From contig NC_089317.1 of assembly GCF_036669915.1 (NCBI RefSeq), positions 2,518,071 through 2,582,070 on the forward strand: a stretch of DNA of 64,000 nt, given 5' to 3'. Positions within the stretch are counted from its first letter, which is position 1. Each line of letters opens with the position of its first letter. Source of the stretch: Pocillopora verrucosa (Eukaryota; Cnidaria; Anthozoa; Scleractinia; Pocilloporidae). Positions 4,513-34,342 of the stretch are shown in pieces. Under the pieces are notes generated by a model that saw only the letters and a program-made list of their open reading frames with translations, had not been told where the DNA came from and ran no database searches. Both the position numbers and the translations under genes were made by a program.

Positions 4513-7500
4513 ATGACCTTTGAGCTATATTGCACAATTTTTGTCTCTATTTTCTTCTTTCAGTTTAAAGAAGCAATATTTACCGATTACAAAAGCTCTC
4601 TTGATGTTTCTGACGGAATTTTAAGCTTCGCTAATCTTTTCTCGTTTCCTAATCATCTACTGAACGCTACACCATTTGAATCTCTCTTCTTGGATGGGGA
4701 ACAAGACTGCCTTCAAGCTTGTACAGAGAACCCTCGATGTCGATCGTTGAATTTCAAAGAAGGTCCTCGGTTAAATGGAAAATTTCTCTGTGAACTCTTG
4801 GACACTGACAAATTTAAGTCGTTGAAGCTATTTGTTCCAAGTTTGGATTTTCATCACTTCAGTGCGACAGTGAGTATTTTTAAAAATTGAACTGTAACCA
4901 GGATATGACATAGTGAGAAAGGTAAAAAAAAAACGTTCTCTCGTTAAAAAGGTTTTAAAATATGAGCTTTCGGCTATTATACTATAGCCTTTAACGAATG
5001 TAGAAAATATAAGCGCGTGAATGGAAATATATACAGGGGAAGGTGTGAGTATTTTGATAAAAAAAAATTTTGATAAAAAAGTTATTTTATAAATATTTTT
5101 ATGCGTGTATGTGCGTTGTGCTATCTTGAAAGACAGCAGGTAGTTTTGTCAGAAAGGAGCTCAAATTTTGGAAAAATTCTTTAATTCATCTCCTACTATT
5201 TAGTTATTTTCAGTTTTTCTTCAAACTCGAATAAATCTACTTTTTAAAATGAAGTGCGCCCTGAATTAAAATTTAAGAAAATTTGCGTAATTTACGTATA
5301 TGCACTGAAGTTGTCTTTATAAACCAGCCCAGTTCGCACAAGTTTGTGCAAGACATCGATAATAAACTTCGACTTAATATATTTATGGGTGTGGCATTTT
5401 TCAATTAAGTTTTTCTGACAATATCACAACATATGACAATATCTTTTTACCAATGCCTTACATATAATACTTTTAATTAATTAGTTATGTTATTTTGAGA
5501 AAGCTGCCTTTCCTCTATTTGACATTATGACAAAACATGAACAAATCGAGGAATGCTGAGTGCAAATCTAAATACATCGAAATAAATAGAAATTTTTGAT
5601 GGTGAAAAAGGGAAAATTTGGCCTTCTCCTTTCTTGCAATTATTTGTCAAAAAAATACAGGTGTATTCAGAAAAGCAAGTCACTGCTCTATACTAGTTGC
5701 AAAGAATCGATATCTCGACGGTAAATCGATCTGTCGTCGAACAGGATAATCCACCTTAGTGACTTCCATCGGCTATGAGAAATCATAACAATGTTACGAC
5801 ATTTCAGAGTTGATATGTCCTTCCCGAACTCGTTTCGCCTTCATCTTGCCTAGCTTTGTGAGGATACCCTTACTAAGTCAGATTGTTGGTTCTTACCAGG
5901 CCCCTTGCGAGCTCGATCCGTGCGAGAACGGAGGAACCTGTCACCCAGTCGAGATGGCGTACGACTTCAAATGCGCCTGCCCTCCAGGTCTCTTTGGGAA
6001 GCAATGTGAGAAGTGTAAGTATGGTTGCATTTTTCAGATAAAGCAAATGCTGCTGAGAAGATGGCTCGAGGAAAGTGGAATAAAACTAAGATATTTACTC
6101 CTTCCTTACATAGCTGCTTGTTAGTTGCTGGTGACCATTTATACTCCCAGATGGAGCGGGGCACCGTTGGAATAAAGCGCCATATCTGTTAACACATAGG
6201 TTCGAATTCAGATCTTAAGATTAGGAGTCCTGTTAAGAATAAGCTACAAATTTATTCGTTCTCTAACGGGACGAAACAGAATGATAAAAAAGAGACATTA
6301 TTAATTCACAGGTATTAAACGAAACCCCGTCCCCGTCCCTCGGGGGTCCCTTAAGGGCATGTATATCAGTAAACTTCTTTCTCGTCAACTTTTTATTTTA
6401 GTGACCGAGAGCTGCGCTGAGCTGCTAGACGCTGGCTTCACAAACAATGGTGTCTACAAAATTCTTTTTAACAATTCCCAAGTGTTCGACGTGTACTGCG
6501 ATCAGTCCAGCCGGGGAGGAGGTAATATTAAAAAAAACTTTACCTTATTATGCACGAAATTCCTTAGAAAAACTGCTTTGAAGACCTATGCGCTTAAAAA
6601 AGAGAAGTGTTCTTTCCCATCGACATCTTTTGGCGCAATTTTCGGTGAAGTGTCGAAGGTCATCTTGGATATCTTTTATTTTGCTTTACTTTGCTGCGTG
6701 ATTGGTCCTCAAAGCTTGCACCACTTTGTCAACCAATCAGATTTTAAATTTAAACCAATCACGCTTTGATCACTTCTGCTCTCCTACGCCCTAGATGTTT
6801 TGCTTGTTTTGACTTAGAGCTCTGATCCAAGACACGAAAAACTTCCCTTTCCTGGTTTCACGCATGCTCGCATAGCTTATAACCTCATATTTTCCCGCGG
6901 GCGCAGTAACGGTCGTGCGCTTAGCGCTGATAATGTTGGCCTGCTTGCACGCTTTCCAGGTGGTGCATATGAGACTCAAGCGCCGGGCGCATGGCGGAAA
7001 AAAGCTTGGGTGTACTAAGCTCTAGTTTTCGCGGAAAACAATCTATTTTGTATACAGGTTGGACAATGGTTTTCAAGATTGTATCTGGCGTCTCGGTTAA
7101 CGGTAGTAGCATCTCACAACTGTGGTTTTCATCGGAGACGATCAATGAAAATAGATCAGAGGCACTGAACATCGATTCTTCATTCAAAGAACATTACAAG
7201 AACCGCTTTGTGCCAAATTGGCACCTTGCAAAACCCAAAGAGGTAAGTCTGTCTTATTCGCCCATGACAAGTTTTTATTGTCATATATAGTTGACTTATG
7301 AGTAACTCAGACATAACTTCTCCTTCAAATATGGATACAATAACAAGCACCCAAGTGATGAGAAAATAAAAAAAGTATCAGTTAACAGCCGGAATTATTA
7401 GTCGATCCAACACCAAATTCTCCAAACTCACACCATAGGAAATGTATGGCAGACAGTAAGGAGAATTACTAATGAGATCTCGGTAGTGAAAAGATTATTT

Positions 7501-7800: not shown

Positions 7801-7858
<58 letters not shown>

Positions 7859-9174
7859 TTTAATTGTCACGATAAAATCAACGTAATTCCCCGTAAGGCT
7901 CTGTAGTATTTTGTTGATTCCCCTGTCTAATGTCTCTCCATTGGCGACGACTGACTCAGTCCCCCCCCCCCCTCCCCTAATAAAAAATGACTAGTCCCTT
8001 ACGGATGTAATTTGTTTTTTGTAGGTGCAGATAGCTTTGTACAAACGGAATGGCTCAGATCCCGAGACCCTTTCTATCGTATTCAACTCGACTAATTCTG
8101 ACGACAAAAACTGGTTTTCTAAAAGTCGGATCGTTCACTCCCCCTGGACAGATTTGGAAAGCGAGCGCCAAAACTACTTCTCGATCAAGGGCTGTTGCAA
8201 TCGAAGGAATTTCTACATTTCCAAAATTCACAACCATTGCTCGAATGATGAAGGATGGCTGGCCATTATCTCTAGTTATTGTCCATGGGAAAAACGTTTT
8301 CCTCTCTCCACTGTTTTGTACAGTAACAGGACGACTTACACAAATTGGAATCATCACGGTAAGATTCGCGAACAAGCTATTGCATTCTTTAGTCCAGTGT
8401 TGCAAAATCACTGCTGCAAGCTAATCAAAAACCTCGCGGTGTGATTGGTCCAGAAAACTCGCGCCACTATCTCAACCAATCAGATTCAAATCAAAAACCA
8501 ACCGTAACTTAATGACTCGCGTTCTCCCGCGCTCCAAGCAGTTTATTTTTCACTCTACGTGCTGATTGGCTTCCGCTGAAACTTCCCCTTCGATGCAATT
8601 GGTTGCTGTGATTACTTTGCATTTGTGTTTAGGACATTCAATCGAAAAGAGCTCCAAAACACCGCTTTCGCATTTTAGATGCGAGCGTATTCGCATTTCA
8701 TTGAGGAAGGAATAGTGTTTCTCTGCCTTTGCAAATAGATGTATCGATCACTTGGAAGGTTAAAACTTTTAATTATGGTTTTTACTTTCGAGGATTTAGC
8801 TTGTGTCCTTATTTAAATTTTATCGCAACTTAGCGTTGGAGGAAAAGTCGTTTCTACTTCTAGGACGTTAGGGGACTGGGTATGGCTTTGTTCTCCCACT
8901 GCTCTGGCCTGGGTTCCATTTCCCAGCCTGATGTCAGCTTGCTCTGGAGTTTTTTCTTGGGGTCTTTCGGTCTTTCTCCCTCCGCAAAAAACCAACATTC
9001 TAAATTGAAGTTTGACGTGGAAAAAGTGGACAGGAATAGCCACCTTTTATATTATCGAACACAAAATTACAAAACTAATTGTACTATTTATACCACTAAG
9101 AATGATAGTCATTATTTTTAAATCGCACAGAAAATGTTGGAGTCGCAGATTTGTTTGTGGTGTATATTCGTTAA
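4513..9174 (+). CDS. Gene A: secreted PAN/apple-EGF-fibrinogen-like protein, coral SOMP-5-like
   Basis: Six exons splice in frame: 4513-4869, 5900-6014, 6402-6521, 7058-7242, 8025-8358 and 9131-9174 (384 aa). Residues 1-21 form a hydrophobic signal peptide. About 25-119 is a PAN/apple domain (GEQDCLQACTENPRC, FHHFSAT). 120-158 is one EGF module (CENGGTC, CACPPG). From 159 the protein reads SCAELLDAG, VYCDQSSRGGG and GWTMVFK, the opening of fibrinogen-like domains, followed by a Cys-rich lectin-like region (FSIKGCC, GWLAI) and a 14-residue tail ending VVYIR. Several N-X-S/T sites are present. It is probably a secreted extracellular matrix or recognition protein. The similarity to coral skeletal organic matrix protein 5 is from memory and the function is unknown. 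Splice sites are canonical. It is the first of three near-identical plus-strand copies. Confidence 0.8.
6120..6250 (+). repeat. tRNA-derived relic in intron 2 (box B-like)
   Basis: Intron 2 of A, B (about 15,470-15,520) and C (about 24,650-24,700) carries a box B-like GGTTCGAATYC followed by CTTAAGAYTAGGAGTCCT. No convincing box A or cloverleaf remains, so it is read as an old tRNA-derived repeat copied along with the unit. Confidence 0.35.
6638..6822. mobile_element. CCAAT-rich foldback MITE, truncated copy in intron 3 of gene A
   Basis: It contains the diagnostic GTGATTGGTCCTC and CCAATCAGATT blocks of the family described at 63576-63808. The right terminal repeat seen in the equivalent introns of B and C is missing here. 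Confidence 0.55.
7798..7857. repeat. (GA)n microsatellite in intron 4 of gene A
   Basis: About 27 uninterrupted AG dinucleotides. Gene B has a much shorter tract at about 17,118-17,135 and gene C has only a remnant near 26,450, so its length varies among the unit copies. Confidence 0.9.
8385..8655. mobile_element. CCAAT-rich MITE in intron 5 of gene A
   Basis: It has the GTGATTGGTCCAGAAAACTC block, CCAATCAGATTC and TCTCCCGCGCTCC, and ends at GACATTCAATCGAAAAG. That end is the same terminal motif as the clean copy at 63576-63808. Orthologous insertions lie at about 17,640-17,895 (B) and 27,010-27,275 (C), so the element was present before the unit duplicated. Confidence 0.65.
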
Positions 9175-10804: not shown

Positions 10805-11722
10805 CTATTCAGCCCTTCGTCAGAGCGAAGGCCTGAAATTATACGCGTGATTTCAGAAAGTTTCTTCCATTTTCCTGCAATCTGATCAGTTACCTTAAAC
10901 AAGGCTTGAAATCCAGGTGGTTGTTGTTTTTAAGCAAGTCTTTCTCATCGGTTGGGAAAAACATGCGACTGATTTAGAGCAAAAAATTGTGCGCTTCGTG
11001 AATTAACTGCACCAGTGAGAGCCGCTAAGATTGCAAGGATCACCAGGGATTTCAAAATGGATGTTTTCGACAGGTAAATTGACAGTTACCAGCTCCCTTC
11101 ATTTCCCCTTACCTGTGCGTGAGAAGGAAGTATAGGTCGTCAGTTTAGTGCACAATGTGGTTGATTCCGTATATTTTCCCTCCCAGTCACAATTTGTGGA
11201 AGTTGTGGCGAGCCATCCTACATCTTCAGAACAACCTCCATGGTTCCTGATGATATAGACGTCTCTTTTAGTACAGCAGCCTTTGACAGAGATGAGATGA
11301 TGTGGTTCATGAGTCATTATTGAGATCTGTCCAGGGAGAGTCAGTGACGCGAGTTTCTGGGAACCTGTTGACGTTGTCAGAGCTTGTAGAGTTAAAGACA
11401 ATGGTAGGATCTTCTGTGCCTCCTGTGAATAGCAATATTCCTATTCACTTCATGCTACGGAAACTGGGATAAGCTCCATCACAGTGTAGTCACATTCTAT
11501 TGGGGAGTAGTAAGGATACTTCAACTTGCATTACACTACAGCTGAACTGGAGTGGAAGCTGCACCAGTTGTTCTTGTTTGCAGACTCGACCTTTCAATGA
11601 CAACGATACTTGATTTCCTCTCGCCTCTGTCCTAATACTATTATCGTTTTAAAAGACATGAAAGCCTAAAAAACCGTGTAGATTACCTGATCTCTGCAAC
11701 GAAAGTTTCATTCATAACTAAG
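10805..11722 (-). pseudogene. Relic of a gene D-type 3' region containing a broken exon 5
   Basis: This stretch aligns with 29,735-30,738 of gene D. A former exon 5 lies at about 11,416-11,113 with its donor still visible (GCACAG|GTAAGG). Relative to D it has a TGA shortly after the WTDLNN-equivalent position and 7 extra bases there, so the remaining frame (KGCCTKRDVYIIRNHGGC) is out of register. Exon 6 and all upstream exons are absent. The left breakpoint falls in the CAGCCCTTCGTC core of a foldback repeat. It shows that the duplicated segment once reached into a minus-strand relative. Confidence 0.8.
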
Positions 11723-13777: not shown

Positions 13778-16700
13778 ATGACCTTTAAGCTGTATTGCAC
13801 AATTTTTGTTTCTATTTTCTTATTTCAGTTTAAAGAAGCAATATTTACCGATTACAAAAGCTCTGTCGATGTTTCTAACGGAATTTTAAGCTTCGCCAAT
13901 CTTTTCTCGTTTCCTAATTATCTACTGAACGCTACACCATTTGAATCTCTCTTCGTTTATGGAGAACAAGACTGCCTTCAAGCTTGTACAGAGAACCCTC
14001 GATGTCGGTCGTTGAATTTCAAAGGTTCTAAAGTACATGGAAAATTTCTCTGTAACCTCTTAGATACTGACAAATTTAAGTCGTTGAAGCTATTTGGTGC
14101 AACTTTGGATTTTCATCACTTCAGCGTGACGGTGAGTATTTTGATAAAAAAATCCTTTTGTAAATACTTTTGTGTGTGCATGTCCGTTGTGCTATCTATA
14201 AAGACAGCAGGTAGTTTTGTTAGAAAGGATCTCTATCTATTTTTTTGGAAAAATTGTTTAATTCATCTGCTACTATATAATTATTTTTAGTTTTTCTTCA
14301 AACTTGAATAAACCTACTTTTTAAAATGAAGTGCACCCTGAATTAAAATTTTAGGAAACCGAAAAAAAAAATTGCGCAATTTACGTATATGCTCTGAGGT
14401 TCTTCCTATAAACCAGCCCAGTTCGCATTTGTGCAAGACATAGATAACAAACTTCGAGTTAATATCTTTATGGATGCGAGATTTTTCGGTTAAGTTTTTT
14501 TTAACAACATCATTTCTCTAACGTTAGACCAACGCCATATGTGTAACACGTTTCGTTCGGATTTGATTAATTATTTATGTTATTTTGAGAAAGCTGTCTT
14601 TCTTCCATTTGACATTATGATAAAACGTGAGCAGATTGAACAATGCTGACTGCAAATCTAGTTATAAATGCATCAAAATAAATTGACATTTGTGATGGCG
14701 AAAAAGGGAATATTTTCTTTTAGCTGCTGAATTTTGCAATTACTCAACGGCCCCGTTTTTAGCAGGTTTCATTATTTTTCATTACAGCGATATTTGCACA
14801 ATCTGTTGACTCATGAATCGCATTTTCTTCCTAAACTGCAAATAATGTATAATTTATAATTTGCCTCATGTCTTGTATTTGGCCTTCTCCTTTTTTCCAA
14901 TTATTTGTCGAAAAAAATAAATAGCTGTATTCAGAAAAGAAAGTCACTGCCTTTGTCGCAAAGAATCGATATCTCGCCGGTAGATCGATGTATTGTCGAA
15001 CAGGAAAATCGACCTCAGTGACTGCTATCGGCCATGAGTAATCAGCACGATGTTATGACATTTCAGGGTTCCCGAACCTGTTTCGCCTTCCGCTTGCCTA
15101 GCTTTGTGAGGATACCACAACAACTCTGAGCCCTTGGGAACCCAGACTTCTGTCACCCTCACCTAAGTCAGATTTTTGTTTCTCCCCAGGCCCCGTGCGA
15201 GCTCAATCCGTGCGAGAATGGAGGGACCTGTCACCCAGTCGAGATGGTATACGACTTCAAATGCGCCTGCCCACCAGGTTACTTTGGGAAGCAATGTGAG
15301 AAGTGTAAGTATGCCTGCATATTTCAGATGAAGCAAATGTCGCGGAGAAGATGACTCGAATAAAGCGGAATGAAAATAAGATATTTACTCCATCCTTACA
15401 TCGCTGTTTCAAAGTTGCTGGTGAGCATTTATTCTCCTAGACGGGGAGAGGGGGCCATTGGAGAAAAGTGTTATATCTGTTACCACATGGGTTCGAATCC
15501 AGATCTTAAGACTAGGAGTCCTCTTCAAAAAGGAGCTACAACTTTATTCTGTTTTCTGACGGGACGAAAGAGAATGATAAAAAAAGAGGTATTACTATTC
15601 CACGGATATTAAGAGGAACTTCGTGCCTAGTAAGGGAATTTATCTTAGCAAACTTGTGTCTTGTCAACTTTTTATTTTAGCGGCCAAGAGCTGCGCGGAG
15701 CTGCTGGACGCTGGCTTCACAAACAATGGTGTCTACAAAATTCTTTTTAACAATTCCCAAGTGTTCGACGTGTACTGCGATCAGTCCAGCCGCGGAGGAG
15801 GTAATATTAAAAAAAACTTTACCTTATTATGCACGACCGCACTTGAAGACCTATGCGCTTAAAGAAGAGAAGTGTTCTTTTCCATCGGCATCTTTTGGCG
15901 CAATTTTAAGTAGATTATCGAAAGTCGTCATGGATATCTTTTATTTTGCTTTACTTTTCTGCGTGATTGGTCCTCAGATCTTACGCCACTTTTTCAACCA
16001 ATCAGATTCAAAATTAAACCAATCACGCTTTGATCACTTTTGTTCTCCTACGCCCTAGATTGCTTGTTTTCATGATGCGCTTTCGTTATCCCTTTGGGCT
16101 ATTTCTCCCCACCCCTCTTCGTCCTTTGATTGGCCGCCAAAACTTTGATTTCGGTTTTTTTTTTTCGACACTCAATCGAAAAAGTTCTCTCAGATGTCCA
16201 GATATGTAAGAAGTGGAGAAAGAGAGAGAGATTGCATAGGCAACCCATCAAGCTAATTTTTAAGCATGAAAGATGACACCCAAGACATGAAAAGGCTCCC
16301 TTTCTAGTGCATTTCAGACTCTAGCGCCGGGCGCATGGCGGAAAACTGCTTCGGTGTACTAAGCTCTAGTATTCGCGGAAAACAATTTATTTTGTATACA
16401 GGTTGGACGATGGTTTTCAAGGTTGTATCTGGCGTCTCGGCTAACGGTAGAAGTAGCTCACAACTGTGGTCTTCATCGGAGACGATCAATGAAGATAGAT
16501 CAAAGGCATTGAACATCGATTCTTCCTTCAGAGCACATTACAAGAACCGCTTTGTGCCAAATTGGCACCTTGCAAAACCCAAAGAGGTAAGTCTGTCTTA
16601 GTCGCCCATGACAAGTTCTTATTGACTTATGAGTGACTCAGACATAACTTCTCCTTCAAATATGGATACAATACCACGCACCCAAGTGATGAGAAAATTA

Positions 16701-18423
16701 AAAAAGTATCAGTTAACGAGTGGGATTATTAGTCGATCCAACACCAAATTCTCCAAACTCACATCATGTATGGCAGACAGTAAGGAGAATTACTAATGAG
16801 ATCTCGATATTGAAAGGGTTATCAAACACTTCTTATGACGTGTATTCAGAATCCATTTAATGCGCTTTAATGCGTAGTAAAGCAATGGTCCAGTGCCGAA
16901 AATGAGCTGGACCTGAGAAACTTTACCTCATTTATATTCCATTTTCTGATTGGTTTAAAAAGATCGCATCATCTATGTTGCCAATCAGATTTAAAACTGA
17001 AACCATTTTAGAAATCTGTACCAGTCCCCCTTTTCTTCTCATGGTCACTTTTTCCATCGCCATTATTGACCGAGAACCTCTCAGAGGGTCCTCTTGGGGG
17101 GGGGGGGGAAGGGGGAAGAGTGAGAGAGAGAGAGAGGAATTTGGTTGTCACGATAAAATTAACCTAATCCCTTATAAGGCTCTGTAGAATTTTGATGATT
17201 CCCATGTCTAAAGTCTCTCCTTTACTCTCCATTTACTAGTCTCTTACCGATGTCATTTGTTTTTTGTAGGTGCTGATAGCTTTGTACAGACGGAATGGCT
17301 CAGATCTCGAGACCCTTTCTATCGTATTCAACTCGACTAATTCTGACGACAAAAACTGGTTTTCTAAAAGTCGGGTCGTTCACTCCCCTTGGACAGATTT
17401 GAAAAACGAGACCCCGAACGTCTTCTCGATCGAGGGCTGTTGCAATGGAAGGGATTTCTACATTTCCAAAAGTCATGGCGGCTGCCTGAATGATGGAGGA
17501 TGGCTGGCCATTATCTCTAGTGACTGTGAATGGGAAAAACGTTTTCCTGCTTTTACTGCTTTGTACAGTAACAGGATGAATTACACAAATTGGAATCATT
17601 ACGGTAAGATTCGCGAACAAGCCATTGTATTCTTTAGTCGAGTGTTGCAAAATCACTGCTGCAAGCTAATCAAAAACCTCGCAGTGAGATTGGTCCGGAA
17701 AACTCGCGCCACTATCTCAACCAATCAGATTCAAATCAAAAACCAACCGTAACTTGATGACTCGCGTTTTCCCGCGCTCCAAGCAGTTTTTTTTACTCCA
17801 CGTTCTGATTGGCTTCCGCTAAAACTTCCCCTTCGATGCAATTGGTTGCTGTGATTACTTTGCATTTGTGTTTAGGACATTCGATCAAAAAGACCTCCAA
17901 AACACCGCTTTCGCATTTTAGATGCGAGCGTATTCGCATTCTACTGAGGAAAGAGTAGTGTTCTTCGGCCTTTGCAAATAGATGTATCAGTCACGTGGGA
18001 GGTTAAAACTTTTAATTAGAGTTTTTACTTTCGAGGATTTAGCTTATGTCCTTATTTCAATTTTATCGCTACTTAGCGTTGGAGGAAAGTCAGTTCTACT
18101 CCCAGGACGTTAGGGGACTGGGGATGGCTTTGTCCTCTCACCGCTCTGGCCTGGGTACGATTCCCTGGCCTGGTGTCAACTTACTCCAGAGTTTTTTCTC
18201 GGGGTCCTTCGGTCTTTCTCCCTCCGCAAAAAACCAACATTCTTAATTAAGAATTTGACCTGAAAAAAGTGAACAGGAATAACTACCTTTTTATATTATC
18301 GAACACAAAATTACAAAACTAATAGTACTATTTATATCACTAAAAATGATTATTTTTTCAATATTTTTTAATCGCACAGGAAATGTTGGAGTCGCAGATT
18401 TGTTTGTGGTGTATATTCGTTAA
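13778..18423 (+). CDS. Gene B: secreted PAN/apple-EGF-fibrinogen-like protein, paralogue of A
   Basis: Exons 13778-14131, 15190-15304, 15681-15800, 16402-16586, 17270-17603 and 18380-18423 splice in frame to 383 aa. The layout is signal peptide (1-21), PAN/apple (to about 118), EGF (119-157, CELNPCENGGTC), fibrinogen-like start (SCAELLDAG, VYCDQSSRGGG), GWTMVFK block (197-258), Cys-rich block (259-369) and tail GNVGVADLFVVYIR. The exon 3 product is identical to that of A and C except for the first three residues. The second half of exon 5 (from 17402) is strikingly divergent from A (NETPNVFSIEGCCNGRDF). All splice sites are intact, and it is the best intact pair with A. Function as for A: extracellular, unproven. 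Confidence 0.8.
15900..16187. mobile_element. CCAAT-rich MITE in intron 3 of gene B
   Basis: It contains GTGATTGGTCCTCAGATC, CCAATCAGATTC, a GATTGGCCGCC block and the right end CGACACTCAATCGAAAAAG. It is orthologous to 25,098-25,402 in gene C. Confidence 0.65.
17640..17895. mobile_element. CCAAT-rich MITE in intron 5 of gene B
   Basis: This is the copy orthologous to 8385-8655, differing from it at only a few percent of bases. It is used here as a neutral yardstick for divergence between units 1 and 2. Confidence 0.65.
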
Positions 18424-20450
18424 TAATTTGCCGGATAAGGTAAGTTGATTATTATAATTATTTGAAACAATTTTTTTTTTATCTCCACCCAGCTTAGGGT
18501 GGAGCTTAGGAAGAAGAGGGGGTCTGGATATGTGCAATCCCCTTTAATGAGTTGCCCCCTCTTCCCTCCCACCCCCCGCCCTCCACCTAACCGAACAATT
18601 AATTTGAGCTACTCTTTTATTGAACGTAGATAAACCAAATCAAAACGTGATATGAACATATAACATTTAATAAATAGAGAAGCCTTAACTATGCTCTGTT
18701 CTGTTGTAAAGCATGAAGGAAGCAGCTAAAGCACAAAAGAAGTGCACATCTTAAGTCCACTGCCACCAAGATGCAGAGAGCTCCATTATGATCTCGGCCA
18801 GGCCTCGGTTCATATGTAACACAGGTCATGCATGATATATACAATGAGCTATCACGATACATAGGGACAAAACGATTTTTATTCAAAACTCATTACAACA
18901 TTTTTCTCTCCTAGACATCGCCGACTGAGGTAGAAACATTAAAGCCTGTTAAATATCTAAGTTAAGTTATATATTAAGTAAGAATTTGCAAGGTTAATAA
19001 GAAATGTGTTATATTCAGTTGTACTTCAAAGACTGTAGAGTATAGATGACTGCAAATACATGAAAATCATATATATGTGAACTGCGGTTGAAGAGACGAT
19101 TATGAAAGCAATCCTCGCAGATATGAATACTACTGAACTAGTAGTGAAAATAAGACCTGAGGTCATGGGTCAGAGGTCATGGGTCAGAGGTCATGGGTTC
19201 AAATCCCGTAAGGGCCTGAATTTTTTTCAGGCCTTATTTTCACTACTAGCTCAGTAGTATTCATAACCGCGAGGATCGCTTTCATATTCGTTGCTTAAAA
19301 GTATTTTCTTTTTATTGGATGCTTAAAGTAAAGAAGGATTACTGTAGTTTTTTTGATAGCATGTAACTCTATGACTGCTACAAAATAAAAAATTGATAAG
19401 GCTATAGTCGACGCCACAAGGAAATCAGTAGAACTCCAAAATTTCACATTTCCTCACGAAGCTTCGCTTCTCGGCCAATCTTTGGAGAATCTCTCAGCCG
19501 CTGAACTTTTAGTTATCAGCGGACATACCAACCCCTTGAAGAGAATATGTAAAATCATATGGGTATAATTCAAAGAAATGTAAAAGCTAAGTCACCGAAG
19601 TTTACAGTGATTTCAACTTTGCTTAACGTATCTGCCTATGTTATTTTGTAATCAGATATATGATAAACCCTATCCATATTAGGACATCATAAGCGTTGAA
19701 GTCTTGTGATAACAGCAGTTTGAATATTTTCAACACTGCACTTCTTGTAGCCTAAGGAAGACTAAAAACTGATTAAAAACGATTTTCCGTGTAAAGTGTG
19801 GTTTATGTGACTTTCATACAGCAAAAAAGTTACAACAAATTTTTTTCTGCTGTTTAGAGCTAGCCCAAACTGTTTCTTTGATATACCTATTTTGTATTTA
19901 GTTGACAAAATTCCAAGGATCATATTTGTAAACAAAAATGTCATAAATAACAGGGTAGGGCTAAGTTTTGCTCTAAGGTGCATGTACCTACCGGTTAATG
20001 TTAAAGGTAATCCAAATAGGGATTCCTTGAAAGAAAGAATAAAGTTGAAGTTTCAGTTCTATGTGATCCTAAAAGCTGAAACATATAAACACTTTTCTCC
20101 TAAAGAATTTTGTAAATTGACTCATAACGAAGAATATAAAAGCACTTTTCTCCATTTGACATGAGGAAAGTATTACTTATGCATTAGTTGAATTAATAGA
20201 TTGAGCAGCTTTATGGTACTTTTGAAAATTTTCCCTTGGCTTAAACCTCGACTTCCAATCCAGGCTTTTTACCAACTGTTGATTCGACAGGTAACCAACA
20301 GGTTAGCGACAGGTGGTGAAATAGCTTTATTAGACACCATATTAACGTTTTATAAAACTGAACATGCATAGATGTGTATTTTTGCAAAACTTATCATAAA
20401 TGATTGAAATTCCTCAAAATGCCACTAAAACCTAAAAGGCACGACAACAT
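18424..20450. other. 3' flank of gene B to unit junction; no gene
   Basis: It holds the tRNA-half foldback (about 19,070-19,295, with three GAGGTCATGGGT repeats) and the unit 2 end. A 90-codon ORF at 19892-20164 has no domain and is interrupted in the matching part of unit 3 (28,880-29,150). About 20,276-20,450 is unmatched junction sequence containing CAACAGGTTAGCGACAGG. Confidence 0.5.
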
Positions 20451-23084: not shown

Positions 23085-26000
23085 ATGACCTTTAAGCTGT
23101 ATTGCACGATTTTTGCTTCTATTTTCTTCTTTCAGTTTAAAGAAGCAATATTTACCGATTACAAAAGCTCTCTCGATGTTTCTAACGGAATTTTAAGCTT
23201 CGCCAATCTTTTCTCGTTTCCTAATTATCTACTGAACGCTACACCATTTGAATCTCTCTTCGTTTATGGAGAACAAGACTGCCTTCAAGCTTGTACAGAG
23301 AACCCTCGATGTCGATCGTTGAATTTCAAAGGTTCTAAATTACATGGAAAATTTCTCTGTAACCTCTTGGATACTGACAAATTTAAGTCGTTGAAGCTAT
23401 TTGGTGGAAGTTTGGATTTTCATCACTTCAGCGTGACGGTGAGTATTTTGATAAAAAAAATCCTTTTTTGAATACTTTTGTGTGTGTATTGCGTTGTGCT
23501 ATCTATAAAGACAGCAGGTAGTTTTATTAGAAAGGATATCTATCTATTTTTTTGGAAAAATTGTTTAAGTCATCTGTTACTATATAATTATTTTTAGTTT
23601 TTCTTCAAACTTGAATAAACCTTTTTTTTTAAAATGAAGTGCACCCTGACTTAAAATTTAGGAAACCTTTTTAGAAAAAAATTGCGTAATTTACGTTTAT
23701 GCTCTCAAGTTCTCCTTATAAACCAGCCTAGTTCGCATTTGCGTAAGACATACATAATATACTTCGACTTAATATTTTTATGGATGTGGCATTTTTTAGT
23801 CAAATTTTCTGACAATATCATATCTCCAACGTTAGACCAACGCCTTACGTATGGAAATTTTTCGTTCGGATTTGATTAATTATTTATGTTATTTTGAGAA
23901 AGCTGCCTTTCTTCCTTTTGACACTATGACAACTTGAGGAATGCTGAATGCAAATCTAAATGCATCGACATAAATTGAAATTTTTGATGGTGGAAAAGGG
24001 AAAATTTTCTTTTACCTGCTGAATTTTTGCATTTATTCAATGCAGGGATTTTAGCAAGTTTCATTAGTTTTCATTGGAGCGATATTTGCACAATGTTTTG
24101 TGTCTCCTTTTATCCAATTATTTGTCCAAAAAAAAAAAATACGTGTATTCAGAGAAGCAAGTCACTGCCTTTGTTGCAAAGAATCGATATCTCGACGGTA
24201 AATCGATCTCTCGTCGAACAGGAAAATCGACCTTAGTGAATCTTATCGGCTATGAGAAATCTTCCGCTTGCCTAGCTTTGTGAGGATACCACAACAACTC
24301 TGAGCCTCTAGGAACCCAGACTTCCCGTCACTCTTACCCTTAGTCAGATTGTCGGTTCTCCTTAGGCCCCCTGCGAGCTCGATCCGTGTGAGAACGGAGG
24401 GACCTGTCAACCAGTCGAGATGGCATACGACTTCAATGCGCCTGCCCACCAGGATTCTTTGGGAGGCAATGTGAGAAGTGTAAGTATGCCTGCATTTTTC
24501 AGATGAAGCAAATGTTGCTGAGAAGATGGCTCGAGGAAAGTGGAATAAAACTAAGATACTTACTCCTTCCTTACATAACTGCTTCCATGTTGCTGGTGTG
24601 CATTAAACTTCCAGATGGAGCGAAGCACCGTTGGAATAGAGCGTTATATCTCTTACCACATAGGTTCGAATCCAGATCTTAAGATTAGGAGTCCTGTTAA
24701 GAATGAGCTACATATTTTATTCGTTCTCTAATGGGACGAAAGAGAATGATAAAAAAGAGGCATTATTATTTCACAGCTATATTAAAAGAAACCTCGTGCC
24801 CAGACTTCCTCGGGGTCCCTTAAGGGCATGTATCTCAGCAAATTTGTTTCTTGTCAAATTCTTATTTTAGTGACCAAGAGCTGCGCTGAGCTGCTGGACG
24901 CTGGCTTCACAAACAATGGTGTCTACAAAATTCTTTTTAACAACTCTCAGGTGTTCGACGTGTACTGCGATCAGTCCAGCCGGGGAGGAGGTAATATTAA
25001 AAAAAACTTTACCTTATTATGCACGAAATTCCTTAGAAAAATCGCATTTGAAGACCTATGCACTTAAAGAAGAGAAGTGTTCTTTCCCATCGGCATCTTT
25101 TGACGCAATTTTAAGTGGAGCGTCGAAAGTCATCTTGGATATCTTTTATTTTGCTTTACTTTGCTGCGTGATTGGTCCTCAAAGCTTGCGCCACTTTTTA
25201 AACCGATTAGATTTAAAATTTAAACCAATCACGCTTTGATAACTTCTGTTCTCCTACGCCTAGATGTTTTTCTTGTTTTGACTTTGTGCTCACACTGTCC
25301 CTTTGGGTCATTCTTTGGGTCATTTCCCCGCCCCATTTCCCCCCCCCCCCCCTGGCTGTTATAACTTTGACTTCGGTTTTTACGACACTCAATCGAAAAA
25401 GTTATCTAAGATTTCCACACATGTAAAAATTGGAGAAAGGGAGAGAGATTGCATGGGCAAGCCATCAAGCTAGCTTCTAAAGTATGAAAGATGACACCCA
25501 AGACACGAAAACCTTCCCTTTTCTGGTCTCACGCATGCTCGCATAGCTCATAGCCTCATACTTTCCCGCGGGCGCAGTAACGATCGTGCGCAAGCGCTAA
25601 TAATCTTGGCCTGCTTGCACGATCTCCAGATGGCGCATTTGCGAATCAAGCACCGGGCGCATGGCGAAGAAATGCTTGTGTGTACTAAGCTCTAGTATTC
25701 GCGGAAGACAATTTATTTTGTATACAGGTTGGACAATGGTTTTCAAGGTTGTATCTGGCGTTTCGGCTAACGGTAAGAGCAGCTCACAGCTATGGTCTTC
25801 CCCGGAGACGATCAATGAAAATAGATCAGAGGCGTTGAACATCGATTCTTCATTCAGAGAACATTACAAGAACCGCTTTGTGCCAAATTGGCACCTTGCA
25901 AAACCCAAAGAGGTAAGTCTGTCTTAGTCGCCCGTGACAAGTTCTCTTAGTCATAATTTCTCCTTCAAATATCGATACAATACCAAGCACCCAAGAGATG

Positions 26001-27459
26001 AGAAAATTAAAAAAAGTATCAGTTAGGGGCCGGGACTATTAGTCGATCCAACACCAAATTCTCCAAACTCATAAGAAATATATGGCAGACAGTAAGGAGA
26101 ATTACCAATGAGATCTCGGTAGTGAAAGGGTTATCAAAGACTTCTTATGACGCGTATTCAGAATTCATTTAATGCTTTAATGCGTAGTAAAGCAATGGTC
26201 CATGCCAAATATTATCTGGAACTGAGAAACTTTACCTCATTTATATTCCGTTTTCTGATTGGTTTAAAAAGATCGCATCATCTATGTCGCCAATCAGATT
26301 TAAAACTGAAACCATTTTAGACATCTGTATCAGACCCCTTCTTTCTTCGCATGGTCACTTTTTGCCATCGCCATTATTGACCGAGAACCTCTCAGACGGT
26401 TCTCCTAGGGACGCTCATTATATACTGTATGGGGAAGGGGGGAAGGGAGAGGAAGAGAGGAATCTGTTTATGTCACAATAAAATTAACCTAAACCCCCAT
26501 GGGACTCTGTAGTATTTTGATGATTCCTCTAACTCGCTGGCAGTTAAACGTCTAAAGTCTCTCCTCTACACTCCATTGGCGACGACTGATCCCCCTCAGT
26601 CCCCCCCTCCCCCCCCGAATAAAACACGACTAGTTCCTCACTTATATAATTTGTTTTTTTTAGGTGCAGATAGCTTTGTACAAACGGAATGGCTCAGAGA
26701 CCCTCGTATTCGACTCTACTAGTTCTGACAACAAAAACTGGTTTTCCAAAAGTCGGATCGTTCACTCTCCGTGGACAGATTTGGAAAGCGAGCACCAGAA
26801 TTACTTCTCGATCGAGGGCTGTTGCTATGGAAGGGCTTTCTACATTTCCAGAAATCATGGCAGCTGCCATGATGCAGGATGGCTGGCTATTACTGTGAGT
26901 GCCTGTGGATGGGAAAAACGTCTTCCTCCTTTTACTGTTTTGTACAGTAACAGGACGACATACACGAGTTGGAATAAGTTCGGTAAGATTCGCGAACAAG
27001 CTATCACGTTCTTTGGTCAAGTGTTGCAAAATCACCGCTGCAAACTAATCAAAAACCTCGCGGTGTGATTGGTCCAGAAAACTCGCGCCACTATCTCAAC
27101 CAATCAGATTCAAACCAAAAACCAACAGTAATTCGACGGCTCCCGTTTTCCCGCGCTCTAAGCATTTTATTTTTTTACTCTACGTTCTGATTGGCTCCTG
27201 CTGAACCTTCCGCTTTTTTGTAATTGATTGTTGTGATTACTTTGCATTTCTGTTAAGGACAATCAATCGAAAAGTGCTTTATAGCACCGCTTTCACATTT
27301 TAGATTCGAGCCTATTCGCATTCCATTGAGAAAAGAACAGTATTTCAGTAATTACAAAATTTATAGTTCCATTTATATCACTAAGAATAATATGTCATTA
27401 TTTTTTATCGCACAGGAAATGTTGGAGTCGCAGATTTGTTTGTGGTGTATATTCGTTAA
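23085..27459 (+). CDS. Gene C: third plus-strand PAN-EGF-fibrinogen-like copy, frameshifted in EGF exon
   Basis: Exons by homology to A and B: 23085-23438, 24366-24479, 24871-24990, 25728-25912, 26664-26982 and 27416-27459. The EGF exon is 114 nt instead of 115: the AAA after GACTTC in A and B is AA here (about 24,434-24,437). Translation therefore leaves the EGF frame after the codons for YDF and meets TGA at once in exon 3. Exons 1, 3, 4, 5 and 6 are individually intact with good splice sites. Exon 5 has an in-frame loss of 15 nt after NGSET. It is either a young pseudogene, giving only a PAN domain plus part of the EGF, or a sequencing/assembly error in a short A run. An AATAAA lies at 27505-27510, where A has AATGAA. 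Confidence 0.7.
24434..24437 (+). other. Single-base deletion in gene C EGF exon
   Basis: A and B read GACTTCAAATGCGCCTGC; C reads GACTTCAATGCGCCTGC. Skipping the exon does not rescue the frame, because exon 2 enters in phase 0 and leaves in phase 1. The alternative donor GTGAGA at 24,471 would give 105 nt, also the wrong phase. Confidence 0.9.
25098..25402. mobile_element. CCAAT-rich MITE in intron 3 of gene C
   Basis: GTGATTGGTCCTCAAAGC and ACCAATCACGC blocks, with the right end CGACACTCAATCGAAAAAG. Orthologous to the element in gene B intron 3. Confidence 0.65.
27010..27275. mobile_element. CCAAT-rich MITE in intron 5 of gene C
   Basis: Orthologous to 8385-8655 and 17640-17895, with a degenerate right end GACAATCAATCGAAAAG. 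Confidence 0.6.
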
Positions 27460-29443: not shown

Positions 29444-32400
29444 TTAACGAATATATACCACCATAACATCAGCGGTGCCCATGTTTTCTGAGAAGAAACA
29501 AATTAGAAATCACTTTCAATTACCACACTACTCCAATATAAGCTGAAACACAAGCCCAAAACATACTCAAAATGTTGCTTTTTTCAAAACGTTTTCAATC
29601 TTGAAAATTTTTTAATCCCCTTCGAAAGTGTCCGTAATTTACTTGAGTGAGGTGCAAGATAACTTTTTTTTTATCAATTGATTTGATAATTTAAATTGGC
29701 CACCGTAAAGAGTCCTTAAAACTGACGTTTCGAGTGTCAGCCCTTCGTCAAAGCGAAGGCCTGAAATTATACGCGTGATTTCAGAAAGTTTTCTTTCATT
29801 TTCAAGTAATTTGATTGGCTACCTTAAACAAGGCTTGAAATCTGGGTGGTTGTTGTTTTTAAGCAAATCTTTCTCATTGGTTGTGAAAAAGATGCGACTG
29901 ATTTAGAGTAAAAATTGTGTGCTTCGTGAATCAACTGCACCTGTGAGAGCCGCTAAGATTGCAAGGGTCACCAGGGATTTCAAAGTGGATGTTTTCAAGC
30001 GGTAAATTGACAGTTACCAGCTTCCTTCATTTTCCCTTACCTGTGCGTTTGAAGGAAGTATAGGTCGTCAGTTTACTGTACAATGTGGTTGATTCCGGAT
30101 GTTTTCCCTCCCAGTCACAATTTGCGGAAGCTGTGGCGAGCCAACCTGCATCTTCAGAACAGCCTCCATGGTTCCTGACGATATAGAAGTCTCTTTTAGT
30201 ACAGCAGCCTTCGATTGAGAAGAAAAGAAGCGGTTCAGTATTGAGATCTGTCCAGGGAGAGTCAGTGACGCGAGTTTCTGAGAACCAATTGACGTTGTTA
30301 GAGCTTGTAGAATTGAAGACAATAGAAAGATCTTCTTTCCCTTCTGTGTACAGCACCACTCGTGCCTGGAAGCGAGAAAAAAGGAAATGAATCCATAAAG
30401 GAAACAAAAAATGAAGGAACATCCCACGAAATTGGAGAATTAACCACGTAGACCTCTTCGGAGAAAGTGCCTCACTCCCAGAGGTCCGTGTAATGTAGTC
30501 ATATCTATGGGAGAGTAGCAAGGATAATTCAAGTTGCGTTATACTAAAGCTGAACTGGAGTGGAAGCTGCACTAGTTGCTCTTGTTTGCAGGACTCGAGC
30601 TTTCAGTGACAACGATGCTTGATTTCCCCTCGCCACTGTCCCATGACTAACATCGTTTCAAAAGACATGAAAGCCTAAAACATCTGTGTAGATTACCTCA
30701 TCTCTGCAACGCGAATTTCATTCATAACTATGTCGCTACTCCGAGCCTTTAATTTAAATTAATAATAATTATCATTAAATTACAAGTCTACCTCGGTAGG
30801 GTTCACAGTCTGCCAGTTCGTCACCATGCGGTTCTTGTAATGAGCTTTGAAATCTGAATTGGTGGTCAGTGCTTCTGGTTTGTCTTCGTTCAAAACACTC
30901 GACGATGTCCATAGCTGGTGAGGAATAGTGGAAACGCCGGACACCAGTTTAAAAACCATCGTCCAACCTGTAAGATAGAGGATGGTTTGTCATCGACAAG
31001 AGGTAAATAAGGTAAAAAAGGTTACGATAAGTGATAGCTGTTAATGCAGTCGTATATTAAGTATTATCGTTTTAAGATTTTAGATATATGAAAATTTCAC
31101 ATATTTTCACTGCGGTGGAGATCCTCGCAGCTCCTAATTTCATCTCTCCACCGCAGTGCAAATATGTGAAATTTTCATATATCTAAAATCTTCATTCACT
31201 TGGATGTTTATTTGTACCCAATTCATTGACTAGCTCCCAGTTGGCTTGTTAGCTCAATTGGTAGAGCGCTGCACCGGTATCGCAGAAGTCATGGGTTCAA
31301 ATCCCGTACAGGCCTGAATTTTTTTCAGGTCCTATTTACAACTACTCGTTTCAGTAGTGTTCTTAGCTGCGAGGATCTCCTAATTTCATATTATCGTTTT
31401 GTTAGAAGCTGTGCGATACGTTAATTATTCTCATTGACATTTAGAAGGGATTTCGTTTATTTATACATAACTTGGCAAACATGTATGCGGCACCTTTTTT
31501 TTTATCGTCCCATGTATGGTACTGTTTCATGTGCTTACAACGGGACCTTCAGTGTGTTTCCTTCGACTAAGCCGAGAGTTGTGAGTGGGAGTCAACCGAA
31601 GCATAGGGGCAAAATTGTTGAATCAAGCGAATAAATCGTGAGTTTATAAGGAAACGGGGTACGGCCTTTTCACGTTTTCGACAGTTTGTCTCACGATGAA
31701 TCCATTTCCTATGTGGATTGTGATGTTTTCTGTCAATAAGGTCGAATACATGCGCATTACGTTATGAAGCTTTCGTCTCAGGAATACCACCCCATCACAC
31801 CTTAAAGTATTTTTGAATGAAAACTCATTAGCGCGAGTAGGGCCTCAAAAGTCCACGTTTAAGATGGCAGACGTTTAGGTAAGTGAACGCATTTCGATCG
31901 TGTGCCGTAAAACCAAACCAAAGTTATCACTGCAGCTAATCATAAAGAAAAGGAAAATATCATTAGGAGCCAATGAGAACCCAAGTTAAAAACAACCAAA
32001 CTGTGTAAAGTGCTGGAAAACGCAAAGTCATGATTGGATTTAGTTTTGCACTTGATTGGTTCAGAGAGTGGGGCAAGTTTCCGGACCAATTACAGAGCGA
32101 AGAAAAGCAAAACAACTGTAATCCCACACTGCTTTCGACACTCAATTGAAAATTTCTCTATATAAATAATAATGAATTCATTACCTCCTCCTCTACTGAA
32201 CTGGTCACAGTAGACATTTATCAACCCTTCTGACTGGCTGGGCTTGATGACGTAAACTCCACTCAGAATATATCCAGCGTTGAGTAATTCGATACAGCTT
32301 CGATATGCTATGAAATAGAATTCAATGACAGTACGGTGCATGCAAACGCCACAAGCAAATTTATAAATAAAAGTAGGGGTGTGATCCTGAATACATCACC

Positions 32401-34342
32401 AGAGAATAAGATTAAAGTGTTTTAGGCTGATATAATTGCCGTTAGGAAGTCTCCTTCATCCGTGCTTCCGGCGATTAGAAAAATAGGTCGTGACGACCAA
32501 ATTTACAGAGAAATTTGTCAATTTTGCGACATGTGTTTAGTGGTCATATGGAACGCCGTTACGTTTTATGGCCTAAAGTTAAGCAAGGAAGACATCTGGC
32601 TTAGAATATGTTAAGATATTGCACAGAACATCCTTTTCCGCTTTTTTTATTTTTTATTCTTTTTGCATAAGGAAAGAAACGAGAGGGAAAATAGTTTTGA
32701 CGGGAAAAATTGTGGTAGCGGCGTCGGAAGTCACTACTTCATCTGTGTGAGTTTTTTTTCAGGCAACAACAATTTTATTTCTTGCAGCCATTGTTTGATT
32801 TTAGTTGATCAATTTGCGACTTTGAAAGTTACGATCTCTGGTTCTTTTGGCGTAAATAGTGACAAAGTGTCAAAAGAATGACGCAAAACGGGTTATACCA
32901 TCTGACCAGTTCGTATAAGATAGTGGTTTTTGACCTTCGATTAAGCCTCTGATATTTTACATCTTTTCCGTTTTAAACCGTCAAACTGTCCTCTTAGATT
33001 GTATTTCTAAAAGTATTTCACTGGGACATAACTTTGATCTATTGCGGCAAGGATAGTGAAGATAATATTTCAAATGCTTACTTACAGATGTTGCAAAGTT
33101 TTCCTTGTAGACCCGGCGGGCAGGTGCATTTGAAGTCATACTGGCCTCTCACTGAGTAACAGGTCCCTCCGTTCAAACATGGATCGTTCTGGCAAGGGGA
33201 CTGGTGAGAGACAACAAAACAAGAAGAAGTTTGTTTTAAATTAATTTTCAAAATCGCCACAAAAAATGTGAATAAGATTAAAAAAGCATTTAGGCTGATA
33301 AATGTGAAAAGGAGAAAAGCAGTTGATAGGAGGGTTTCAATGGAGTAACGGCTATTACGGCTGACAGTTAAAATTTTGATTTTATATCCGTGACTCAAGT
33401 ATACAATAATTCAGCTGTTTCGTGCCAAAAAAAAAAGAAAACGGCATCAGAATTTTCAGTGTCCGAAAAAAATATAAATGAATCAAAAACAACCGATCGC
33501 GTGTTATTAGCCTTTGCCTAGGAATCCTTTTTTAGCCACTGCGATAAAAACTGACGGATTGACAGTGGTCATGGCTTCAGAAATTGTGATCAATACAGAA
33601 ACTGAAAACAAGACAAATAATGGAGCTTTACTTCTAAACTAAAAACGCCTTAATCAGTTTTCATTTCAAGAAATTGAAGTATTCAGGTTAAAAACATAAA
33701 ACAAATTGGTTTTGTCTATGTATACACTTAAAGTATATTAATACAACGCCAGTGTGGCTCCTCGATTGTTTATCACAAATAACCTAGCGCGGTGATGGAA
33801 GATAGAAATTATGATACCAATTCTAGAACATATTTATCATAATTTAGTTATTCATAAACCAAAAATTCGACAATTTGACCTTCAACCTTCCGATAATTTC
33901 AAAAGTATTTTTGCGATAACAATGTGCCCTTGGTTTCCAATAATAGAACGAGATTGTTTATAAAAGATCTTACCGTGAAGCTGTAATGGTGAAAACCTTC
34001 GCTCACATTGAATAATTGCGGGAAGGTGAACTTATCAGTGTCTAGTAAATAACAGAGAAACCTTCCATCATTCCCAGCGGCTATCTTGAAATTCACAGAC
34101 TGGCAGTTTGACGTGTTGATACATCCTAAAAGACATTCCTCTTCTCTTTTAACTTCGTAAGATATGTTTGATGAAGAGTTTAATTGATGGCGACGAAAAG
34201 GCATCGGATTACCGAACAAAAAATATCCATTCGAGTAAGAATTCTTGAAATTTGTTGACTCGGCCACACTGTATGCGAAAAGAAAAGGACATAAAATGAA
34301 GAGGAAGCAACTGTAAGTGTTGGCGACACGATCCAGTTTCAT
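29444..34342 (-). CDS. Gene D: secreted PAN/apple-EGF-fibrinogen-like protein, divergent family member
   Basis: Minus-strand exons 34342-33974, 33200-33086, 32307-32185, 30967-30792, 30365-30041 and 29487-29444 splice in frame to 383 aa with intron phases 0,1,1,0,1, as in A-C. Signal peptide 1-28; PAN/apple about 30-123 ([23 protein letters not shown]); EGF 124-162 (CLNGGTC, CTCPPG); fibrinogen-like start ([20 protein letters not shown]); GWTMVFK block (203-261); Cys-rich block ([25 protein letters not shown]); tail [14 protein letters not shown]. Five or more N-X-S/T sites. The exon 5-intron 5 part was copied into 10,805-11,722, where it decayed. Extracellular role inferred from domains. Confidence 0.8.
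29690..29780. repeat. Fragment of the GTCAGCCCTTCG foldback repeat
   Basis: The sequence ATTGGCCACCGTAAAG...ACTGACGTTTCGAGTGTCAGCCCTTCGTC matches one arm of the palindromic elements at 55,420-55,550 and 61,690-61,830. The duplicated gene D relic begins at the same CAGCCCTTCGTC (10,806), so this repeat lies at a rearrangement breakpoint. Confidence 0.6.
31074..31192. repeat. Inverted repeat (48-bp arms) beside tRNA-like sequence, intron 3 of gene D
   Basis: The left arm 31,074-31,121 (AAGATTTTAGATATATGAAA...) pairs almost perfectly with 31,145-31,192. The loop contains ATCCTCGCAGCTCC. The motifs ATATATGAAAATY and CTGCGAGGATC also mark the foldbacks near 9,885, 19,070, 28,125 and 58,566, so this belongs to the same composite family. 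Confidence 0.75.
31243..31315 (+). tRNA. tRNA-Thr(GGT)-like sequence, likely SINE/tRNA-derived
   Basis: It folds as a cloverleaf by eye. The acceptor arm GGCTTGT pairs with ACAGGCC (7 bp with one G-T), the D arm is GCTC/GAGC, and the anticodon arm is CTGC/GCAG with loop CCGGTAT (anticodon GGT). The T arm ATGGG/CCCGT encloses TTCAAAT. Box A-like (TAGCTCAATTGG) and box B (GGTTCAAATCC) are present. Against a functional tRNA are C instead of T at position 33, an A-C mismatch closing the anticodon loop, and the 3'-half copies elsewhere in foldbacks. A CAGGCCTGAA-T7-CAGG hairpin follows directly; the T run could end Pol III transcription. It sits in an intron of gene D on the opposite strand. Confidence 0.55.
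31922..32150. mobile_element. CCAAT-rich MITE in intron 3 of gene D
   Basis: ACCAATTACAGAGCG, GATTGGTTCAGAG and a right end CGACACTCAATTGAAAA. It is a different insertion from those in the A-C introns, which shows that the family was active more than once here. Confidence 0.6.

Follow-up and report, generated by a model that had tools for sequence, protein, structure and literature searches.

Signals of diversifying selection in a variable half-exon of a tandem, secreted-looking PAN and EGF domain gene family of the coral Pocillopora verrucosa

Organization of the locus

The window analysed here is a 64-kb stretch of contig C6 in the 353-Mb genome of Pocillopora verrucosa. Self-comparison of the window revealed an array of units of about 9.2 kb carrying the genes A, B and C, all on the + strand, after which the paralogues D, E and F are located on the - strand. 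Gene A splices to 1125 bases, encoding 374 residues and a stop, with AG/GT at every internal junction. In gene B, all six exons have an open frame. Compared to A and B, exon 2 of gene C (24366-24478, +) lacks one base and is thereby frameshifted; this gene may be a pseudogene, or the missing base may be a sequencing error. The features of the family are as follows.

4513..4869, +: gene A exon 1, hydrophobic leader (recognized by eye) and PAN/Apple domain (tblastn, ATG, GT donor; Pfam PAN_1, E 4e-8)
5900..6014, +: gene A exon 2, EGF-like domain (tblastn, splice sites; Pfam EGF, E 5e-7)
6402..6521, +: gene A exon 3, start of a fibrinogen-C-like domain (tblastn, splice sites, Pfam)
7058..7242, +: gene A exon 4, GWTMVFK motif followed by a variable stretch (tblastn, splice sites)
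8025..8358, +: gene A exon 5, whole (AG/GT sites)
8025..8156, +: gene A exon 5, first half, 5 of 132 bases unlike B
8157..8358, +: gene A exon 5, second half (hypervariable patch), with anchors R, F, C, D, GW and C conserved amid changing codons
8193..8210, +: variable stretch 1, exon 5 residues 57-62, putative loop (columns 68 and 73 flagged in C9)
8241..8252, +: variable stretch 2, exon 5 residues 73-76, from Cys to Gly-Trp, putative loop (varies in C6, C7 and C9; column 86 flagged)
8274..8285, +: variable stretch 3, exon 5 residues 84-87, flanking a conserved Cys, putative loop (alignment of copies, C9 site test)
8355..8357, +: final complete codon of exon 5, which varies in C6 and C9
9736..9749, +: gene A exon 6, final codons and stop (splice sites)
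13778..18928, +: gene B, exons 13778-14131, 15190-15304, 15681-15800, 16402-16586, 17270-17603 and 18915-18928
17402..17603, +: gene B hypervariable half-exon (alignment with A)
23085..26982, +: gene C, exons 1-5, with the deletion in exon 2
26784..26982, +: gene C hypervariable half-exon (alignment with A and B)
30041..34285, -: paralogue D, five exons found, ends approximate
36674..42060, -: paralogue E, five exons found, ends approximate
43582..47585, -: paralogue F, five exons found, ends approximate
11120..11444, -: broken relic of a D-type exon 5 in the A-B interval (self-comparison, tblastn)

The region 10809-11434, spanning the D-type relic, matches 29737-30355 at 88.8%, and the duplicated unit therefore carries the dead end of its inverted neighbour. 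A GA microsatellite was noticed by eye at 7801-7854, in intron 4 of gene A. Two tRNA genes were predicted: tRNA-Thr (31243-31315, +) lies in the interval separating exon 3 of paralogue D from its exon 4, and tRNA-Arg (36167-36240, -) lies downstream of paralogue E. A Pfam scan of other open reading frames of the window covered seven of them; the frame at 49872-50732 (-) matches the Sulfotransfer_2 family (E 1e-54), while Fibronectin type III and immunoglobulin stretches at 59723-63552 (-) are perhaps exons of one separate gene.

Domain composition of the predicted proteins

Pfam assigns three domains to the A protein behind its hydrophobic leader: PAN, EGF and the beginning of a fibrinogen C-terminal domain. 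Residues 160-208 correspond to positions 3-52 of the 221 positions of Fibrinogen_C (PF00147), with a score of 25 bits against a cut-off of 22, and this match begins in exon 3 and extends into exon 4. For a profile of exons 3-5 built from six paralogues, angiopoietin-2 is a match over 58 positions (E 1e-7), and intelectins are also found among the matches of the fibrinogen start in the A protein and exon 3-5 profile searches. The remainder of the fibrinogen C-terminal domain includes the ligand-binding region known from ficolins. This remainder was not detected in the A/B/C proteins: with a profile of exons 4-5 alone (11 paralogues), the top sequence match in the PDB was flagellin (E 0.44), and a Pfam search of the same exons returned four families, each in one of the 11 paralogues and with a best E of 0.022; a distant match may still exist. 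Based on these searches, the C-terminal part of the proteins appears to be an undescribed domain. Apart from the three domains named, the Pfam scan of the A protein to E 10 gave a nematode C2 match below the cut-off and no immunoglobulin domain.

Whether exon 5 resembles the part of intelectins that binds sugar was also considered; as the exon 4-5 profile had no intelectin match and only the fibrinogen start does, such a likeness is not claimed. An AlphaFold2 model of exon 5 alone, made with six sequences, reached a mean pLDDT of 32 and is unusable.

Copies elsewhere in the genome

With E 0.001 as the upper limit, a whole-genome protein search gave at least 33 matches, including two pieces of one relic, and a second query gave at least 34, adding two fragments. 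They are arranged in arrays on C6, on C7 (3.84-3.89 and 4.03 Mb) and on C9 (13.67-13.78 Mb), with one copy on C5. From these four contigs, 31 copies of exon 5 were aligned. The C7 and C9 copies have mostly open frames and matching splice acceptors.

Residues 57-62, 73-76 and 84-87 of exon 5 vary in separate arrays, while the R, F, C, D, GW and C between the variable stretches are invariant in 11 paralogues. Over the whole half-exon, 15 of 67 residues are invariant across six paralogues and 9 of 67 across 11. When the 67 columns are classed by variability in A/B/C and in C9, 16 vary in both, 13 in A/B/C only, 9 in C9 only and 29 in neither (p = 0.008). The aligned copies thus display a conserved scaffold of Cys, Trp, Gly, Arg and Asp anchors carrying short variable stretches, with the same codons changing across arrays.

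Two of the copies are peculiar. In L017 (C7:3872233-3872514, -) the C-terminal part of exon 5 equals that of L007 residue by residue, while the first 30 codons or so are unalignable; it is apparently a partial duplicate. In L021 (C9:13736741-13737064) exon 5 is open, and exons 1-4 of gene A found no match in about 8 kb upstream.

Divergence among genes A, B and C

The A-B alignment of the 67 codons starting at 8157 has 34 mismatches in 201 bases and 21 changed residues among 67. The exon's first half has 5 mismatches among 132 bases, and intron 5 (8359-8548) has 8 among 188 aligned ones. These figures bear out the counts of the original prediction. By the Nei-Gojobori method, the half-exon changes between A and B amount to 27.5 replacement and 6.5 synonymous changes. 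Gene C differs again from A and B at many of the same codons, as had been claimed and as can be seen in the half-exon alignment.

The original prediction also stated that the changes are clustered. When a window of 67 codons, a size derived from the finding itself, was moved along the coding sequence, the half-exon came out, within one codon, as the position densest in residue changes for every pair (p = 0.004 for A-B, 0.0035 for A-C, and 0 of 2000 shuffles for B-C). At 40 codons the clustering held for A-C (0 of 2000 shuffles) and B-C (p = 0.002) but was not significant for A-B (p = 0.109).

In all three pairs the half-exon has a dN of 0.19-0.21, compared to 0.01-0.10 in the other A/B/C exon comparisons. 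Its dS is not raised in A-B or B-C, and is higher in A-C (0.402). For A-B, dS is 0.194 in the half-exon, and 0.181, 0.261, 0.123 and 0.108 in exons 1-4, respectively; the first half of exon 5 has 0.034. In the A-B pair, the patch is therefore unusual in replacement and not in silent divergence; since its dS is within the range of exons 1-4 and its flanks are unusually alike, it is the flanks rather than the patch that are unusual in silent divergence.

Average dN/dS values of the half-exon, which are point estimates only, are mixed. They amount to 0.98 for A-B, 0.52 for A-C and 1.31 for B-C, to 0.52 for nine C9 copies, and to 0.13 to 1.66 for the remaining close groups in which the ratio is finite (C7 trio 1.51, L009/L010 1.06, L028/L030 1.66, L012/L013 0.24). 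Averages above 1 are thus found in B-C, the C7 trio, L009/L010 and L028/L030, and not in A-B, A-C, the main C9 group, L012/L013 or L026/L027. The last pair has one replacement and two synonymous changes in the half-exon and no excess, while the close copies L009/L010, L028/L030 and L007/L008/L015 still gain replacements in the variable stretches.

Intron comparison and gene conversion

According to the original prediction, divergence of the exon far exceeds that of the flanking intron. The A-B figures for 8359-8548 agree with this, but the relation is not general. The intron 5 stretch used in that comparison, at about 5% divergence, is unusually similar: of 40 A-B windows lying wholly within introns, 31 differ by 8-20%, three by more and six by less (median 12.3%), and three of the six low-divergence windows are situated directly 3' of exon 5. 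For A-C and B-C, divergence is about 11-18% in windows from the initial 300 bases of intron 5, and 15-22% in the two windows within the half-exon. Among six groups of close copies, the half-exon exceeds all four intron stretches only in L009/L010 (4.8% versus 1.4-3.1%). For the nine C9 copies the order is reversed, the half-exon (11.5%) lying below all four intron stretches (14.5-31.9%).

A check for gene conversion, which had been suggested together with the claim, revealed conversion-like tracts. A scored-run test identified a tract of A-B similarity at 8336-8687 (+), starting from the 3' edge of the patch, and a tract of B-C similarity at 4602-5236, each reached in 0 of 1000 shuffles. The A-B tract is likely due to gene conversion. 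In the alignment, A and B show a mosaic, with neighbouring stretches unusually alike. The argument that the coding patch evolves faster than its own intron was found to lean mainly on this locally homogenized flank, and the intron comparison was rejected as proof of selection, as it depends on the local A-B similarity tract and fails in the nine C9 copies.

Site-model tests of selection

Codon likelihood tests were performed with a purpose-written program, whose false-positive rate was gauged by 120 simulations of one test, on 21 of the 31 aligned copies. The copies D, E, F, L005, L012, L013, L017 and X17001 did not enter the tests because they are too distant or incomplete, nor did L024 and L029, which are broken; L012, L013, L024 and L029 are nevertheless counted in the dN/dS averages given above.

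For the whole exon 5 of the nine open C9 copies, the comparison of M1a and M2a, a site-model check proposed with the original prediction, favoured selection (2dl 11.5, p = 0.0032), as did M7 versus M8 (p = 0.0014) and M8a versus M8 (p = 0.0003). About 11-13% of the codons are estimated at a dN/dS of about 3.5, and all nine codons with a posterior above 0.5 are located in the second half of the exon. None of the 120 null simulations without selection reached 11.5, the highest value being 10.9. The test gave p = 0.011 for the second half alone, p = 0.023 with the tree of exons 2-4, p = 6e-5 with a star tree, and p = 0.031 without L021, a level reached by two of the 120 null simulations.

Exons 2-4 of eight C9 copies also gave a significant signal (p = 0.0068). 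Of the six codons flagged there, exon 4 contains four, and three of these are near Leu-Trp. Selection thus extends beyond the half-exon, so that the patch is not unique, and the selected surface, if it is a surface, probably includes exon 4.

Cross-array codon tests

In order to avoid circularity, codons picked in one array were tested in others. The preferred cross-tests are those of the second half of exon 5 alone; fits that share branch lengths across both halves overstate the A-B dN/dS because the first half is homogenized. A further codon set ('motif loops'), drawn after viewing all copies, was excluded as evidence.

The ten codons at which A, B and C are all different show a dN/dS of 2.33 in 18 other copies, compared to 0.58 for the rest of the half-exon (p = 0.0007 versus 1; p = 4e-9 versus the rest). 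The same codons gave 1.90 in C9 alone (p = 0.033) and 3.78 in C7 together with the minor C9 groups (p = 0.0038). When the exon's last codon is dropped, the pooled value for the 18 copies is 2.04 (p = 0.0068), and the value for C9 alone falls to 1.49 (p = 0.22), or 1.72 (p = 0.08) when the first half is included. Two A/B/C codon sets, of 29 and ten codons, were tried in C9 and only the smaller one exceeded 1: all 29 half-exon codons variable in A/B/C gave 1.07 (p = 0.79 versus 1), with 0.44 for the rest.

In the reverse direction, the nine codons picked in C9 have a dN/dS of 2.93 in 12 other copies (p = 0.0026 versus 1), with 1.04 for the rest, and of 3.55 without gene C (p = 0.0017); for C7 with the minor C9 groups alone the result is marginal (2.67, p = 0.049). 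In all nine second-half fits, the chosen codons differ from the rest of the half-exon at p below 0.03.

Selection above 1 is thus clear only once the codons are separated, and not in half-exon averages. The proposed dN/dS check over many copies is answered in the same divided manner, with chosen codons above 1 and averages mixed, down to the 0.52 of the nine C9 copies. All copies come from one assembly and every test compares paralogues; recombination or functional divergence after duplication can therefore mimic selection. With this scope, and with some tests marginal, a replicated signal of diversifying selection among the paralogues is supported. Repeated change of a few residues within an otherwise steadier domain is of a kind known from proteins that recognise other cells or microbes. 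The diversifying selection named in the original prediction was in this way upheld by evidence other than its own, namely the dN/dS above 1 at the same codons in other arrays.

Interpretation and alternatives

The explanation we favour, with moderate confidence, is that A/B/C belong to a tandem family of secreted-looking proteins with PAN, EGF and fibrinogen-start domains, in which conversion evens the scaffold and selection diversifies putative recognition loops. Duplication would supply the gene copies, short gene conversion would even out scaffold and introns, and diversifying selection would hold the variable stretches, taken here as loops, apart between the copies. The outcome could be a germline-encoded set of binding specificities, each copy presenting a slightly different face. 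The least certain step is that the loops would form one face in contact with a varying target, such as microbes, symbionts or conspecific cells and gametes. The original prediction spoke of a ligand-binding surface and a recognition molecule; for the half-exon both are putative. An extended version, in which corals would possess a germline-encoded variable recognition system with hypervariable loops on a conversion-kept scaffold, possibly acting in egg-coat allorecognition or symbiont choice and paralleling the fibrinogen-type self-recognition proteins of ascidians, is put forward tentatively and considered rather unlikely.

If constraint on the tail of the protein were relaxed, its contrast with the neighbouring sequence would come only from local A-B gene conversion. 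The half-exon averages near or below 1 in A-B, A-C and the C9 copies are consistent with this, as are the value close to 1 of the 29 A/B/C-variable codons in C9, the homogenized A-B flanks and the frameshift of gene C. However, the invariant residues retained across six and 11 paralogues do not suggest a freely changing tail. Different arrays also agree in which codons vary, and in the second-half cross-tests the codons picked elsewhere exceed a dN/dS of 1; we regard relaxed constraint as unlikely. Specialization of duplicates is harder to separate from continuing selection: each copy would have been tuned once after duplication, for a role in matrix, egg or adhesion, with no continuing arms race, and paralogue data alone cannot tell such a burst from continuing selection. 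A possibly related name group, by the presumed link discussed below, spans skeletal-matrix and egg proteins (in a passage of PMC4890752), which fits such a history. The replacements that L009/L010, L028/L030 and L007/L008/L015, unlike L026/L027, still add in the variable stretches argue against it, and it is seen as a possible though doubtful account, a little more credible than relaxed constraint.

Two further readings concern the origin of the patch itself. The original prediction offered imported sequence as an alternative to selection, the half-exon of A being replaced via conversion from a diverged donor, and the similarity of A and B indeed falls at the start of the patch and returns at its end. 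Among the aligned copies in the assembly, however, none is nearer to the half-exon of A than B (69% of residues) and C (68%), the next one reaching 52%. The patch divergence of B-C is moreover as high as that of A-B, and A is therefore not the odd one out. Import is consequently held to be very improbable. Tandem repeats are error-prone and gene C has its one-base frameshift, both of which could point to assembly chimerism or sequencing error; yet the same codons vary in the separate C7 and C9 arrays, whose frames are mostly open and whose splice acceptors match, and an artefact appears the least credible of all the accounts.

If, under the favoured reading of conversion and diversifying selection, the variable residues bind a varying target, corals would have a compact and countable germline-encoded recognition set whose likely contacts are marked by selection. 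Symbiont choice, immunity and gamete recognition would then be open to direct binding and typing experiments.

Comparison with known systems

Cnidarian proteins with PAN, EGF and fibrinogen-start domains, like those of gene A, often bear the label 'skeletal organic matrix protein 5-like'. If this name is right for the present family, it would be a caution against viewing the A/B/C family solely as skeleton components. A passage of PMC4890752 groups USOMP-5 with coral egg proteins by shared partial sequence, and in a passage of PMC7579821 a gene of the skeletal organic matrix protein 5 name group is raised in ovaries. According to PMC4043741, USOMP-5 has a signal peptide but no named domain and is 256 residues long; compared to the 374 residues and the domains of gene A, this counts against the presumed link. 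The passages of these three papers on USOMP-5 and egg proteins contain nothing on selection or hypervariable stretches, and no report of selection in the A/B/C family is present among the matches listed from open-licence papers, as far as their passages go.

The recognition-type systems of other animals offer parallels in kind. The FREPs of snails are a diversified fibrinogen-type recognition family carrying immunoglobulin domains, and the A protein, with no such domain in the Pfam scan, differs from them in this respect. The v-Themis system of ascidians includes a nested PKD1/REJ-type sperm partner gene. The v-Themis proteins are multiallelic, fibrinogen-like components of the egg coat acting in self/non-self recognition (passage of PMC9265791). 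For an egg-coat use in corals this parallel is an analogy only; a full fibrinogen domain was not detected in A/B/C.

In corals, amplified tandem families are likely tied to recognition, according to a passage of PMC10236652, and positive selection is described for tachylectin-2 (PMC2880987) and for the CEL-III lectin (PMC3119059). The latter two differ from A/B/C, belonging by name to different families and being compared there as alleles or putative orthologues, whereas the present copies are paralogues of tandem arrays. A diversified recognition-type system is thus of a known kind, and the A/B/C family as an example of it is not reported in the listed open-licence matches, in the passages concerned. 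By their signal of selection, and by the recognition role that they may have, A/B/C resemble tachylectin-2 and CEL-III.
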